64,000 bases of DNA from Pedobacter sp. BS3. Lineage in GTDB: Bacteria; Bacteroidota; Bacteroidia; Sphingobacteriales; Sphingobacteriaceae. Within the stretch, counting starts at the first letter, position 1. Every line of letters begins with the position of its first letter. Under the pieces are notes generated by a model. The model did no database searches. It saw only the letters and a program-made list of their open reading frames with translations, and was not told the origin of the DNA. Position numbers and translations under genes: made by a program. Below, in pieces: positions 1 through 6,272 of the stretch. Location: assembly GCF_008274585.1 (NCBI RefSeq), contig NZ_VTRT01000001.1:620001-684000 (forward strand). Direction: 5' to 3'.

Positions 1-1651
1 GGAAAGGTATCTCGGAATTATCGGGTGTGTTGGGTTTGATATATACTTTGAAGGGGCCGATGGATTTAGTTTCCAGCAGGCCTATGGCCGGCAGGGTTTG
101 TATGGCATTTAATATGCTGACGTACCCGTTTGTTGTGCTCAATTTAACAGTTACATTAGTTGCTGCGGTTAAAAAATTCTTCAGATCCAGGTAAAGCAGC
201 ACGGTATCGCCGGCAGGCAGCGTACCGCTACCATCATCGGTTACCGTAAGTTTTTGGTAGCGTATGGAGGGCGGCGATTTGGTTAAAGCCCGGTAAACAT
301 TTAAGCGGCCTTTACCCAGCATGCCTACATAAGCAGGATTTATATTATCGATATTATCGGATGTGATGCGCAACTGTTCGCCAACCTGCTGCATGGTGAG
401 TTCCGGGCGGTAGCTTTTTACCAGGGCTGCAGCGCTTGAAACCATCGGCGTTGCCATAGATGTACCCGATTTCTCACCATATTTACCATTATATATGGTG
501 CTGGTAATACCTGTTCCGGGCGCTGCTATAGAAACGTAAGCACCATAATTTGAAGATCCGCTTTTTTTATCGTTGCCGTTAACATTGGCAACTGCCAGCA
601 CGCCGCTATAGCCGGCCGGGTAGTCGGGCTCAGAAGTATTACTGTTTCCGGCGGCTGCTATAACCAGGCAGCCTTTATCTATGGCATAATTTACAATATC
701 CTGCCCAAACTGGCTGAAGGAACCACCCCATGAGCAGTTGATAATTTGTGCACCGTGGTCGGCTGCATATTTTACACCCTCAAAGCCGGTATAGATAGAG
801 GAGGCATCGTTATCCGCACCGGTTTTAACGATCATCAGTTTGGCGTTGAAGGCAATACTGGCTACACCGGTATGGTTATCGGAAACGGCCGAAGCAATGC
901 CGCTGACATGTACGCCATGGTCAGTGCTGTCACTTTTTACGTTCGGATCGTTATCCGGAGTCCAGTTGTTGCCGGATGCACCTACAAAGTCCCATCCGTA
1001 ATAATTGTCGATGTAGCCGTCGCCATCGTCGTCAATGCCATTAACGGGATCGGCCGTATTAATGTAAATGTTGGCAGCCAGGTCGGGGTGCGTGGTTTCA
1101 GAACCCGAATCGACAATGGCGATAATTATTCCCGAGGCATTGCGGGTAATGTCCCATGCCTGTGGCGCAGAAACCTGGCTCAACCAGGTTTGCAGTCCAT
1201 ACGACGTATCGTTGGGTGTATAGCTGGTGTGATAAATGTAGCTGGGTTCGGCATATTCAACCCGGGCATCTTGTAACAATTCATTAATGGCTGTTTGCAG
1301 TTTACTGCTATCCGCAATGTGTATGCTGTAAATGCGACTTAACCCAACCGGGTCAGCCTCTTTTAGTACAGTATTACCTCTCTTTAGGGATGAGGAAGTC
1401 GGCTTACCAAATTTTTTTTCAATAGCCAGTACATTAGTACTTTGCAGCTTTATAACAGGTTGCGCTTCTGCTGATGTTTGATCTTTACCTGTTGCCTGCT
1501 GACTTTGCTTAAACTTAACGATGATGACGCCGGGAAGGTAATTTTTCGCCTTAACGCCGGGCGGCAGCGCAAATGTGCGTAATGCAGGTTTAGGTTGTGC
1601 GTATGTAAACAGCACACTTAATAAAATGCCCGGAAGCAGCAGTTTCTTCAT
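1..1651 (-). CDS. S8 subtilisin-like serine protease, secreted (C-terminus beyond window)
   Basis: The minus-strand frame is open from the ATG at 1651 to the window edge, giving 550 visible residues. It starts with a signal peptide (about residues 1-19, ending in TYAQ) followed by an inhibitor-like propeptide (about 35-150). The subtilase domain carries the full triad: Asp181 in IVDSGS, His245 in HGVHVSG and Ser398 in SGTSMATP, with the oxyanion Asn in AAAGNSN. His is in a slightly unusual context (HGVH rather than HGTH). After the catalytic domain comes a beta-rich region (about 430-550) that runs off the window. A T9SS sorting tail would be expected further on but cannot be seen. It probably hydrolyses proteins outside the cell or at the surface. 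It lies downstream of the sigma/FecR pair on the same strand, but 349 bp away, so co-transcription is uncertain. Confidence 0.93.
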   Translation of the reverse strand, partial: MKKLLLPGILLSVLFTYAQPKPALRTFALPPGVKAKNYLPGVIIVKFKQSQQATGKDQTSAEAQPVIKLQSTNVLAIEKKFGKPTSSSLKRGNTVLKEADPVGLSRIYSIHIADSSKLQTAINELLQDARVEYAEPSYIYHTSYTPNDTSYGLQTWLSQVSAPQAWDITRNASGIIIAIVDSGSETTHPDLAANIYINTADPVNGIDDDGDGYIDNYYGWDFVGASGNNWTPDNDPNVKSDSTDHGVHVSGIASAVSDNHTGVASIAFNAKLMIVKTGADNDASSIYTGFEGVKYAADHGAQIINCSWGGSFSQFGQDIVNYAIDKGCLVIAAAGNSNTSEPDYPAGYSGVLAVANVNGNDKKSGSSNYGAYVSIAAPGTGITSTIYNGKYGEKSGTSMATPMVSSAAALVKSYRPELTMQQVGEQLRITSDNIDNINPAYVGMLGKGRLNVYRALTKSPPSIRYQKLTVTDDGSGTLPAGDTVLLYLDLKNFLTAATNVTVKLSTTNGYVSILNAIQTLPAIGLLETKSIGPFKVYIKPNTPDNSEIPF

Positions 1652-4184: not shown

Positions 4185-4559
4185 ATGGAAAATCAAATTC
4201 TTCAACTGGAAAAGAAGTATTGGAAGGGAATGCAGGACGGTGATTTTGAAACGGTAAAAAGCCTGAGCCACTTCCCATGCATTGTAGCCGGAAAAAATGG
4301 GGTAAGAAGTGTGGACGAAGCCACTTTCAAAATGATGTTTGATTCGGGAAAGGACAGGCAGTTGAATGTCCTGAATATTTCTGACACGCAAATGCAGAAG
4401 ATCAATGAGGACAGCGCTGTTATTGCTTACCTTATTGAGTTGGAATACAATGTACAGGGAAAAAAGTCATCTGGTAAATGTGCCTGTACTTCAACCTGGG
4501 TAAAGGAAAATGGGAAATGGGTTTGTGCCCTGCATACAGAAACTGACCTACAAAAATAA
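4185..4559 (+). CDS. NTF2-like/SnoaL-like (DUF4440-type) protein
   Basis: A 124-residue cytoplasmic protein with no signal peptide. The pattern is that of the small cone-shaped NTF2-like fold: an N-terminal helix with the conserved LEKKYWKGMQDGDFETVKSL start, a strand pair in the middle, and C-terminal strands with STWVKENGKWVCALHTET, typical of DUF4440/nuclear transport factor 2 family proteins. Members of this superfamily are enzymes (isomerases, cyclases, hydratases) or simple ligand-binding proteins, so no reaction can be named. It is monocistronic, reads towards a bidirectional terminator, and has no functional link to its neighbours. Confidence 0.8.
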   Translation: MENQILQLEKKYWKGMQDGDFETVKSLSHFPCIVAGKNGVRSVDEATFKMMFDSGKDRQLNVLNISDTQMQKINEDSAVIAYLIELEYNVQGKKSSGKCACTSTWVKENGKWVCALHTETDLQK

Positions 4560-4662
4560 GCCACCTGGAAAGGCGGCTTCAGACCTTATGTGTGCAGAGA
4601 CTGACGCCGTTAAATTTAAATCTGTAATATTTTTCCTGAAAAACCTTTAAAAGGTATAAAAC

Positions 4663-4691
4663 AAAAAAACCACTCTGCTTGAGTGGTTTTT
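4663..4691. terminator. Bidirectional rho-independent terminator
   Basis: A perfect 7-bp stem (ACCACTC/GAGTGGT, 4669-4675 with 4681-4687, loop TGCTT) is extended by an A-tract on the left and a T-tract on the right. It therefore terminates both the NTF2-like gene (plus) and the tRNA-Asp/GIY-YIG transcript (minus). Confidence 0.85.
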
Positions 4692-4713
4692 GCTTCCCCT
4701 TCAGGGGTAAAAG

Positions 4714-4787
4714 CGGTCCGGACGGGACTCGAACCCGCGACCCCATGCGTGACAGGCATGTATTCTAACCAGCTGAACTACCGGACC
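4714..4787 (-). tRNA. tRNA-Asp (anticodon GTC)
   Basis: Read on the minus strand this forms a complete cloverleaf of 74 nt. The acceptor stem is GGTCCGG with CCGGACC, the D arm starts GTTCAGC, the anticodon stem CATGC/GCATG encloses the loop CTGTCAC with anticodon GTC, and the T arm has the loop TTCGAGT. The discriminator base is G, as expected for tRNA-Asp. The 3' CCA is not encoded. A terminator follows directly. A second, rearranged copy of its 5' half lies 255 bp upstream on the same strand. Confidence 0.97.
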
Positions 4788-4804
4788 AGTTTTGTATCAA
4801 TCTA

Positions 4805-5035
4805 TTATAGAAAGAACGATTTCTTTGTTTGTTTTTTGAGAAATAGCTCTCGCTTTTGAGCTTCACTTCTCGTTTCAAACTCCTCGAAATAAGCAACCTT
4901 CCAGGGAATCTTTTTTGAAGTATATTTAGATAAGCCCTGATTATGAAACAACAATCGCTTTTCTAAATCTTCAGTATATCCAATATAAAAAGAACTATCC
5001 TGTTCGCTCTGCAATATGTATGTTTTATATTTCAT
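4805..5035 (-). CDS. Small GIY-YIG nuclease family protein
   Basis: A 76-residue single-domain GIY-YIG (URI/UvrC-like) protein. The diagnostic elements are YILQSEQDSSFYIGYT (the GIY-YIG strands, here YIL and YIGY), the Arg in EDLEKRLLFHN, and a Glu-containing helix (EEFETRSEAQKRE) that supplies the metal-binding Glu. It ends with a Lys-rich tail. Family members cut DNA using one divalent metal ion; these short stand-alone forms are common in Bacteroidota and mostly uncharacterised. The ATG is only 6 bp after a fragment of the tRNA-Asp 5' half, and the intact tRNA-Asp starts 17 bp after its stop, so the gene lies between direct repeats of a tRNA. This suggests a small mobile or homing-like unit, but that is an inference. 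Confidence 0.88.
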   Translation of the reverse strand: MKYKTYILQSEQDSSFYIGYTEDLEKRLLFHNQGLSKYTSKKIPWKVAYFEEFETRSEAQKRELFLKKQTKKSFFL

Positions 5036-5041
5036 ACTTCT

Positions 5042-5104
5042 TGCGTGACAGGCATCCCCTCCCGAGTTATTCGGGATCGGGGTAACCAGCTGAACTACCA
5101 GACC
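5042..5104 (-). pseudogene. Rearranged partial tRNA-Asp (5' half) with inserted hairpin
   Basis: Read on the minus strand, 5104-5083 matches the first 22 nt of the neighbouring tRNA-Asp with one difference, and 5055-5042 matches 14 nt covering the anticodon loop including GTC. Between them the 6 nt GAATAC of the intact tRNA are replaced by a 27-nt hairpin (5056-5082; stem TCCCGA/TCGGGA plus CCCC/GGGG with a bulge). The T arm and 3' acceptor strand are missing, so it cannot form a tRNA. It directly precedes the GIY-YIG start codon and may form part of that mRNA's leader. Confidence 0.85.
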
Positions 5105-5198
5105 TTCCCGTTTGGGTTTGCAAATATAGCGTCTTTCTTTAGTTTTTCAATGAAAAAATAAAAAATCTTAAAACTGCTGTTCTCTAAACCGTAATCAG

Positions 5199-6272
5199 CT
5201 AAATAACAGCACCTTCCTTCATTTTTTCTGCGTTTTCGGCAAACTGAAGGGCATCAATAATTTCCTGAATATCGCCATCCATAATAGCAGGCAGGTTGTA
5301 TAAGGTCAGGCCGATGCGGTGTTCAGTGACCCGCCCCTGCGGGTAATTATATGTTCTGATCTTTGCCGAACGGTCGCCCGTTGAAACCATCGTTTTACGT
5401 TTAGCGGCAATATCGCCGTTATGTTTTTGCAGTTCCAGGTCATAGAGCTTATTGCGAAGCATCTCCATGGCCAGCTCCCGGTTAGCCAGCTGCGAGCGTT
5501 CCACCTGGCACACTACCACAATTCCGGTGGGCTTATGCGTCAGCTGAACTTTGGTTTCCACCTTGTTCACATTCTGTCCACCGGCACCACCCGACCGCGA
5601 TGTCTGCATCTCAATATCCGCGGGATTCAGTTCCACATCCACCTCCTCGGCTTCCGGCAAAACCGCTACCGATGCCGCCGACGTATGCACCCGTCCCTGC
5701 GTTTCCGTATCAGGAACACGCTGTACCCGGTGCACGCCAGATTCATATTTCAGCGTGCCGTACACATCCTCTCCCGAAACCTTCAAAATCACCTCTTTAT
5801 AGCCGCCAGCCGTGCCTTCCGTAACATCCATCACCTCCACTTTCCAGCCCTTGGTTTCAAAGTAACGGGTGTACATCCGGTACAGGTCGCCGGCAAACAA
5901 AGCCGCTTCATCACCGCCGGTTCCACCGCGAATTTCAACAATAGCGTTTTTGCTGTCCTGCGGATCTTTTGGTATCAGCATCAGCCTGATCTGCTCTTCC
6001 ATCGCCTCTTTTTTGTGCTGCAGCTCATCCAGGTCAAGCTTGGCCATTTCCCGCAGTTCCTCATCCTTCTCGGTAGAAAGCATGCGCTTATTGGTCTCAA
6101 TATTGCTGATCACATTGCGGTAAACACGGTACTCATCCACAATTTTGCCAAGATCCTTATATTCCTTGTTCAGCCGGGCAAACCGCTTCATATCGCTCAT
6201 CGTGCCCGGATCGCTCAGTTCGCGTTCAACCTCTTCCCACCGGTTTTTAATAGCTTCTAATTTATCTAACAT
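5199..6272 (-). CDS. prfA: Peptide chain release factor 1
   Basis: A 357-residue class I release factor that recognises UAA and UAG in the ribosomal A site and triggers hydrolysis of peptidyl-tRNA. The N-terminal domain is helical (about 1-100), domain 2 carries the codon-reading tripeptide PDT at 187-189 (the RF1-type PxT, which separates it from RF2 with SPF), and the catalytic GGQ is at 231-233 in [14 protein letters not shown]. Length is standard. The start is the ATG at 6272, giving the usual [16 protein letters not shown] opening. It is a housekeeping gene, transcribed in the same direction as the tRNA-Asp/GIY-YIG unit that follows 95 bp downstream. Confidence 0.98.

Follow-up and report, generated by a model that had tools for sequence, protein, structure and literature searches.

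Small GIY-YIG nuclease genes in duplicated tRNA genes of Pedobacter and its relatives look like an undescribed kind of selfish genetic unit

Why does a small nuclease gene stand between a broken and a complete copy of the same tRNA gene? This arrangement was met on the minus strand of the window, the whole 64,000-nt stretch of Pedobacter sp. BS3 DNA analysed here (assembly GCF_008274585.1, contig NZ_VTRT01000001.1, positions 620,001 to 684,000; the genome is G000 in our labels). A sequence-only reading of the window had described a tRNA-Asp remnant with a palindrome, a 76-residue gene and a complete tRNA-Asp, all on that strand, and this anatomy proved exact (Table 1). The terminator that it had placed after the tRNA is present as a terminator-like hairpin, read by eye.

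The window ORF matched PF01541 (65.2 bits, E 6.5e-18), and the complete tRNA-Asp(GTC) was the only tRNA-Asp among the 30 of 42 genome tRNA matches that were read. Intron families gave no match within positions 4400-5400 at E values up to 1; a complete tRNA adjoins the gene instead. The upstream ORF is presumably prfA, and the sequence 5' of the remnant is promoter-like by what we take to be the Bacteroidota promoter consensus. The TATATTTGCA motif, promoter-like and in the same place, also precedes tRNA-Asp at three sites of relatives that are empty of the gene (L326, L330 and L333).

Table 1. Positions of features at the window locus and at related loci; unless a contig or tRNA positions are given, numbers are window positions
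Feature	Position	Strand	Evidence
tRNA-Asp remnant, tRNA positions 1-22 (one difference)	5083..5104	-	sequence comparison
27-nt palindrome CCCCGATCCCGAATAACTCGGGAGGGG in place of tRNA positions 23-28 (six bases, GAATAC)	5056..5082	-	
Palindrome core, TCCCGA-ATAAC-TCGGGA	5060-5076	-	
tRNA-Asp remnant, tRNA positions 29-42; six bases separate it from the ORF	5042..5055	-	
GIY-YIG nuclease gene, 76 aa, Asp clade of the tRNA-linked class	4805..5035	-	
Complete tRNA-Asp(GTC), 17 bases past the ORF	4713..4787	-	ARAGORN; Rfam tRNA, 67.1 bits, E 3.1e-14
Terminator-like hairpin and T run, 3' of the tRNA	4663..4690	-	by eye
Upstream neighbour, presumably prfA; marker of the conserved tRNA-Asp site in relatives	5199..6272	-	
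Promoter-like TTG-N19-TATATTTG, immediately 5' of the remnant	5121..5150	-	sequence reading
Gene-less broken tRNA locus L077	G000:C4:27178-27304		
Gene-less broken tRNA locus L067	G000:C23, near 132380-132565		
Palindrome in broken tRNA-Met	replaces tRNA positions 39-48		
Palindrome in broken tRNA-Asn	replaces tRNA positions 26-35		
Palindrome in broken tRNA-Leu(TAA)	replaces about 28-44		
Palindrome in broken tRNA-Val	replaces about 29-45		
Palindrome in broken tRNA-Arg(CCT)	mostly after position 21 or 26		
Palindrome in broken tRNA-Ser(GGA)	mostly after 13, sometimes 36		

The BS3 genome contained five PF01541 genes at E 0.001. One of them was uvrC-sized (625 aa) with no tRNA near, and the four small ones all adjoined a tRNA (Met, Asp, Asn and Leu). 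Given 42 tRNA matches, and with gene places assumed to be independent, a same-strand tRNA within 500 bp of all four would be expected by chance with a probability of about 5e-10. All four were accompanied by a palindrome-broken sequence of the matching tRNA, as judged by eye; the Leu remnant was short and gave no fragment match in the similarity comparison, and the Asn gene had an internal TAG.

Matches to the window protein at E 1e-8 were found in 73 of the 201 genomes of the order, with the full set of matching loci fetched, and PF01541 was searched in 61 genomes of the family, the family loci being those among the matches listed. In the protein tree, two kinds of small GIY-YIG gene separated, a tRNA-adjacent class and a longer sister class. 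Repeat loci (L002, L006, L012, L100, L116, L118, L101 and L108) were omitted. The tRNA-linked class had a same-strand tRNA within 500 bp at 101 of 107 fetched family and order loci; four of the six exceptions were at the edge of the fetched stretch and two were inner (L141 and L165). A further 27 loci, comprising 12 window-protein matches and 15 family PF01541 matches, were sorted by sequence before the tRNA lookup, and 15 of the 19 that belonged to the class had a tRNA within 500 bp, with two at edges and two without (L427 and L431). Combined, 116 of 126 class loci were tRNA-linked, and six of the ten misses lay at stretch edges, the remaining four being the inner loci just named. The preference of this subfamily for tRNA neighbours, on which the sequence-only reading had made its mobile unit depend, was thus borne out.

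In the longer sister class, a tRNA within 500 bp was found at 0 of 32 and 0 of 8 loci (0 of 40 together), the first of these counts being partly a matter of construction because the two classes were initially sorted by tRNA nearness. The independent parts of the comparison are the protein tree, the loci chosen by window-protein similarity alone and the 27 loci that were sorted by sequence first. Broken parts of the adjacent tRNA lay near the gene at 96 of the 101 linked loci (reversed and complemented controls, 0 and 1 of 101) and at 11 of the 15 added ones (controls, 2 and 0 of 15). Overall, broken copies were present at 107 of 116 linked loci (controls, 2 and 1 of 116), and 9 of 116 showed none; decayed copies could fall below the ARAGORN or BLAST thresholds.

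Across the phylum, a profile of the class matched 175 of 395 genomes, in 96 of 171 genera. The best 30 phylum-wide loci among the matches listed, one of which (L216) is the Met locus of BS3 itself, had a tRNA within 500 bp in 28 cases. The full 27-mer of the window occurred a single time in the 4.81-Mb genome, at the window locus, even when three mismatches were allowed. Since this 27-mer is unique, all four small genes lie by a tRNA and the anatomy recurs in scores of genomes, the window arrangement is not due to chance; the window unit is one case of a large recurring system. No vehicle was evident, since for a Met-type query the phage and plasmid records were almost empty: one weak match in 50,697 phage records and three weak plasmid records, on which a phage or plasmid vehicle was set aside.

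The tRNA-linked class is divided according to tRNA identity. A tree of 106 proteins was built with one protein per locus, leaving out those with an unreadable tRNA label, genes missed by the motif, the Met-type loci of named genomes and the added 27 loci. Its 16 isoacceptor labels required 19 changes, against a minimum of 15 and a mean of 74.6 for shuffled labels, with 0 of 200 shuffles as low. The 23 Met proteins, which came from two families, formed a single clade (100/99), and Asp, Asn, Ala, Arg(CCT), Leu(TAA) and Val showed two to four label changes each. The window protein fell in the Asp clade with mixed support (97/38), and the order of its unit is the reverse of that of the other Asp units.

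The Met-type alignment was also scanned against named genomes, and the best 79 loci, which were kept, came from Pedobacter, Cyclobacterium, Niabella, Gracilimonas, Balneolaceae, Rhodothermia, Ignavibacteria, a KSB1 MAG and others. Among these best 79 loci, 62 had a same-strand tRNA within 400 bp, and in all 62 it was tRNA-Met (one being a broken CAT call). Nine of the other 17 lay near stretch edges, and three of the eight inner ones had a tRNA-Met at 414-646 bp. Judged from these sequences, each small nuclease lineage appears to be dedicated to one tRNA isoacceptor gene. The alternative offered at the outset, that the hairpin-bearing tRNA half is a tRNA-like leader of the gene, leaves the isoacceptor-specific clades unexplained, as it does the opposite order of gene and tRNA at most loci.

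The usual order in Met, Val, Leu, Asn, Ala, Gly and the other Asp units was intact tRNA, terminator, gene and broken tRNA. Arg and Ser units and the window Asp unit mostly followed the order of broken 5' part, gene and intact tRNA, with two Arg loci (L125 and L131), where the tRNA lies upstream, as exceptions. Both layouts are what would be expected of insertion into a tRNA gene with duplication of a tRNA half. At least two full genes were present at 17 of 107 loci. At L040, four tandem units stood behind three intact tRNA-Asp genes, and at L120 (G220:C1:2859000-2864500) eight near-identical tandem units with a period of about 398 bp stood behind one tRNA-Leu(TAA). The palindrome stem had decayed in the final two units of L120. 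Pedobacter psychrophilus carries a tandem Met array.

The site itself was compared across 29 genomes with a prfA match, 13 of which, BS3 included, had a tRNA-Asp after prfA. An intact tRNA-Asp and no detected fragment had been predicted for relatives lacking the gene, and this was found in 10 of the 12 relatives, whose empty sites held one to three intact tRNA-Asp copies; the target is therefore uninterrupted in most of them. Of the other two, G012 carries a unit at the prfA site, with a partial gene match (1-59 of 78), and G003 has a gene-less scar. The same-genus genome G001 had no tRNA at the prfA site.

The G003 scar (L327), read by eye, has the palindrome GACCGAGGGCTCGGTC and a 3' piece of tRNA-Asp between the promoter and an intact tRNA-Asp, and lacks a GIY-YIG gene. 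In BS3 itself, palindrome-broken copies of tRNA-Trp and tRNA-Asn lie directly 5' of the intact tRNA, and neither place has a GIY-YIG match (Table 1). Fragments without the gene, which the sequence-only reading had held to count against a mobile unit, thus do occur, after prfA in G003 and at the Trp and Asn copies of BS3; we read them as scars or as gene-less, non-autonomous versions. A 100% copy of tRNA-Val positions 33-76 was also observed 15 kb from the tRNA-Val gene (G000:C1:391316-406275), which is what the distal end of an element integrated at the tRNA would look like.

Most broken tRNA copies carry a short palindrome, at a tRNA position that is largely fixed for each isoacceptor (Table 1). 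In Met units the identical ten bases were replaced in Bacteroidota, Balneola-type, Rhodothermia and KSB1 loci, in most of the remnants that were readable; no full fragment pair could be read in about half of the 62 Met loci. The position varies between far lineages, the Asp units of more distant families losing T-arm bases. The stems covary: in a set of 34 distinct Met palindromes, pairing held in 99.0% of stem cells versus 92.9% after shuffling, and cells with double changes numbered 15 versus 3.2 (0 of 500 shuffles as high), confined to two of the six stem pairs. The recurrence of palindromes at like sites excludes the hairpin as a one-off insertion. Replacement of the anticodon arm was considered as well; it holds for Val, Leu(TAA) and partly Ala, and fails for Met, Asn, Arg, Ser and the window Asp.

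Palindromes of the same kind also occur away from the units. The core pattern of the window palindrome was found at 70 sites in the BS3 genome versus 0 for a backward-read control, so the proposed search for the hairpin gave a divided answer: the 27-mer is unique, yet its core belongs to a genome-wide palindrome family. The initial proposal of a small tRNA-directed, homing-like unit that leaves one working tRNA is thereby supported in its main part, while the hairpin is not private to the unit. TCCCGA palindromes had a median of 40.5 copies in 18 carriers versus 2 in 22 other genomes (p 5.8e-7), and of 38 versus 2 outside fetched loci (p 1.6e-6), where the 18 carriers were hand-picked among genomes that have class genes, in most cases on the strength of TCCC-type palindromes already seen there, and the 22 lacked the class as judged by window-protein or PF01541 matches and not for every clade (19 without a window-protein match at E 1e-8; G002, G007 and G028 with two PF01541 matches each). 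The difference persisted within two genera (p 0.004 and 0.013). Exceptions among the genomes without a match were G071 (34 copies), G034 (18), G077 (15) and G065 (12).

Two Met stems, TCCGCC and TCCGTT, were counted reciprocally over the same 20 genomes. The raw counts of TCCGCC were 42, 36, 27, 8, 5, 5 and 4 in the seven Met-locus carriers and at most 3 in the 13 others; outside fetched tRNA loci they were 38, 34, 23, 7, 4, 3 and 2 versus at most 3 (p 2.5e-4). TCCGTT reached 15, 12 and 8 in its three Met-locus carriers and at most 4 in the 17 others, and outside fetched tRNA loci 14, 11 and 3 versus at most 4 (p 0.007). The backward-read controls reached 3 for TCCGCC and 12 for TCCGTT. The palindrome family that matches the gene-linked copy was thus clearly dispersed in five of the ten genomes (G000, G053, G133, G123 and G213), modestly in G036, and not in the other four (G061, G169, G221 and G177), where the 2-4 copies outside tRNA loci did not exceed the number in some genomes that lack the stem.

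The surroundings of the dispersed copies were inspected too. No tRNA-like flanks were seen by eye in 19 fetched stretches, and a BLAST comparison of 15 palindrome loci with the genome's own tRNAs matched the window locus alone. The dispersed palindromes are not the tips of longer hairpins, significantly complementary flanks being present in just 1 of 32. In BS3, TCCCGATTTGCAATCGGGA is repeated many times with an identical loop (e.g., L180 and L187), and the two copies that were read lie in longer, similar intergenic sequence away from tRNA loci. At L200 and L212, pairs of palindromes in opposite orientation stand about 80-86 bp apart and resemble REPIN doublets. L214 (G000:C12:102764-102837) was discarded as a further remnant, with a weak tRNA match (29.2 bits) and no palindrome seen; it is a pseudo-tRNA or an unusual tRNA.

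Six residues of the protein, Y6, Y17, G19, R27, H31 and E63, which we take to be catalytic, were invariant across 17 aligned rows. The AlphaFold model of the window protein had a pLDDT of 90.6. By sequence, the closest solved structures were UPF0213 (1zg2 and 1ywl) and SLX1 (7wme and 7cq2), and by fold SLX1 (6sei, TMq 0.73), with I-TevI at about 0.6. Ten close pairs of genes were compared. Seven of them had a dN of 0.06-0.15 and a dS from 0.26 to saturation, the pair L135/L139 had dN/dS values of 0.016/0.247, and two Ser pairs were too close to tell (0.011/0.025 and 0.022/0.078). With dN below dS in close pairs, the gene is maintained as a protein under purifying selection. SLX1 is a cutter of branched DNA according to the PDB titles, and by analogy a hairpin or branched substrate would be plausible for the tRNA-linked class.

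On balance, we lean slightly toward viewing the unit in the window as one of a family of homing-like GIY-YIG units that are tRNA-specific and coupled to REP-like palindromes. Cleavage, mobility and a role for the palindrome are what we infer beyond the observations. The nuclease would cut its tRNA gene, or a hairpin formed by that gene, where the unit is absent, and repair templated by a unit-bearing copy would insert the GIY-YIG gene together with a duplicated stretch of tRNA. Such an insertion would rebuild one complete tRNA and leave the other half over. In the window, insertion after tRNA-Asp position 42 would leave the native 5' half in front of the gene and, behind it, a complete tRNA in which the 5' half brought by the unit is joined to the native 3' half. 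The leftover half would then be broken by the genome's REP-like palindrome at a site largely fixed by the isoacceptor; this would abolish tRNA function and hamper loss through direct-repeat recombination, and the structure that the nuclease itself recognizes is probably marked, or formed, by the palindrome. Repeated cutting and recombination would produce the tandem arrays.

Since the adjacent intact tRNA retains the very bases that are lost to the palindrome, a nuclease that simply cut this site as duplex DNA would attack its own host, and the true substrate must differ from that duplex site. It may be branched, hairpin or single-stranded DNA, or a site that spans the palindrome; cutting may otherwise be regulated. 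That the GIY-YIG nuclease not only homes into one tRNA gene but co-evolves with and spreads its own REP-like palindrome is a tentative reading, which we place on the doubtful side. On this reading, the boldest one, the palindrome in the displaced tRNA half would be an immunity mark or a recognition structure. The lack of dispersal outside tRNA loci in four of ten genomes lowered our estimate of this palindrome-spreading reading slightly.

The same four genomes, with little or no dispersal of the Met palindromes outside tRNA loci, would suit an account that we find rather unlikely, in which the GIY-YIG genes are tRNA-homing units and the palindromes are bystanders: REP-like elements that are moved by another enzyme (e.g., RAYT) or by replication slippage, insert at any site that tolerates them, and are tolerated in the spare tRNA copies from GIY-YIG-driven duplication. 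Palindromes do occur in the gene-less broken Trp and Asn tRNAs and elsewhere in the genome, and Bacteroidetes have RAYT subclasses with "atypical secondary structures" (PMC6006769). However, random tolerance would not lead one to expect a palindrome site that stays near-constant for a given isoacceptor between genera, and even between phyla, and the abundance of TCCCGA tracks the presence of the GIY-YIG class within two genera. A crude motif scan of 1.26 Mb (26%) of the BS3 genome revealed no Y1-transposase-like frame; a separate RAYT may still be encoded elsewhere in that genome.

The arrays, in which between one and three tRNAs are intact and as many as eight gene units occur, could instead be taken to serve the host: the nuclease would provoke tandem tRNA amplification when the tRNA is attacked or limiting, and broken copies would be by-products. 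SegB of phage T6, acting against Septu, provides a precedent (PMC13096335), and the purifying selection on the gene would fit. Most of the extra tRNA copies in the arrays that were read are broken, however, so amplification would seldom raise tRNA dosage, and presence is patchy, with the 73 of 201 order genomes matching the window protein. We judge a host-serving role improbable.

The isoacceptor specificity, and the tandem broken-tRNA repeats upstream of some genes (L001, L041 and L174), would also be compatible with a toxin-antitoxin-like pair in which the tRNA itself is the substrate of the GIY-YIG protein, and this protein is restrained by the broken, palindrome-bearing tRNAs as decoy RNAs. 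This is very improbable in our view: the closest relatives by sequence and fold (SLX1) act on branched DNA, the commoner layout places the remnant downstream of the gene, the tRNA fold is disrupted by the palindromes, and the dispersed palindromes would be left unexplained. Ordinary tRNA duplication and decay beside an unrelated small gene, or an assembly artefact, carries practically no weight, for although tRNA genes do duplicate in tandem (L328, L330 and L334), linkage at 116 of 126 loci versus 0 of 40 in the sister class, a tree that follows tRNA identity, broken copies at 107 of 116 loci and the same arrangement in the one-contig genomes G220 and G513 speak against it.

The homing-like units set out above can be placed among known elements. 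Genomic islands and prophages that integrate at tRNA genes insert into them and restore the 3' end with a carried copy; they use tyrosine integrases and are kilobases long, whereas the units here are about 0.3-0.4 kb with one nuclease gene. Mobile ORFs of fungal mitochondria consist of an endonuclease ORF and a duplicate of the interrupted gene end, and mitochondrial GC clusters and double-hairpin elements are mobile short hairpins. These mitochondrial cases concern protein genes of an organelle; here, tRNA genes are involved. We know of no nameable kind of element that combines an isoacceptor-dedicated GIY-YIG gene, a rebuilt tRNA, a palindrome at a recurrent site and a dispersed palindrome family, and the small nuclease genes in duplicated tRNA genes look like an undescribed kind of selfish genetic unit. 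The mechanism we hold to be about as likely as not. Searches of the open-licence PMC literature brought up no paper on the system, and the available part of a survey of the GIY-YIG superfamily (PMC1564403) contains no description of such units.

If the palindrome-spreading reading is correct, these units constitute a new class of selfish elements in Bacteroidota and neighbouring phyla, with essential and conserved tRNA genes as targets. A nuclease family that is divided by isoacceptor, rebuilds the tRNA and has the spare half marked by a palindrome would join three so far separate fields, those of homing endonucleases, tRNA-gene integration and REP-type palindromes, and would offer a testable source for the dispersed palindromes in these genomes. 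It would also account for the tandem GIY-YIG/tRNA arrays, which probably disturb assemblies as well, and would yield a set of very small nucleases that are perhaps naturally specific for tRNA genes.

UPF0213 and SLX1 are the closest structures; the tRNA-linked class is nearer to them than to I-TevI, and its proteins, about 76-100 aa long, form a clade of their own. No tRNA link is seen in the longer bacterial GIY-YIG class beside this clade (0/40). The closest known systems are SegB and REP/RAYT, neither of which has all the features of the tRNA-linked units. SegB and the other Seg-type GIY-YIG nucleases of T-even phages are likewise free-standing and tRNA-adjacent and drive the tandem amplification of tRNA segments by recombination, and the tandem arrays described here resemble the SegB-driven amplification in phage T6 (PMC13096335, in the part accessible). 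In that part of the source, Seg-type genes are phage-borne and reported without tRNA isotype preference, whereas those here are chromosomal and isoacceptor-dedicated, and hairpin-broken tRNA copies and a palindrome family are not mentioned there. REPs and REPINs with their RAYT (REPtrons) are, as far as the accessible parts of PMC3733652 and PMC6006769 go, likewise short, dispersed and genome-specific palindromes tied to a nearby nuclease-like gene. RAYT is an HUH tyrosine enzyme, whereas the gene here is GIY-YIG; the same parts of these sources do not mention targeting of tRNA genes, and the palindromes here lack the GTAG tag. If the palindrome-spreading reading holds, the units described here, with essential tRNA genes as their anchor, would have arrived at a lifestyle like that of REP/RAYT a second time and by an unrelated route.
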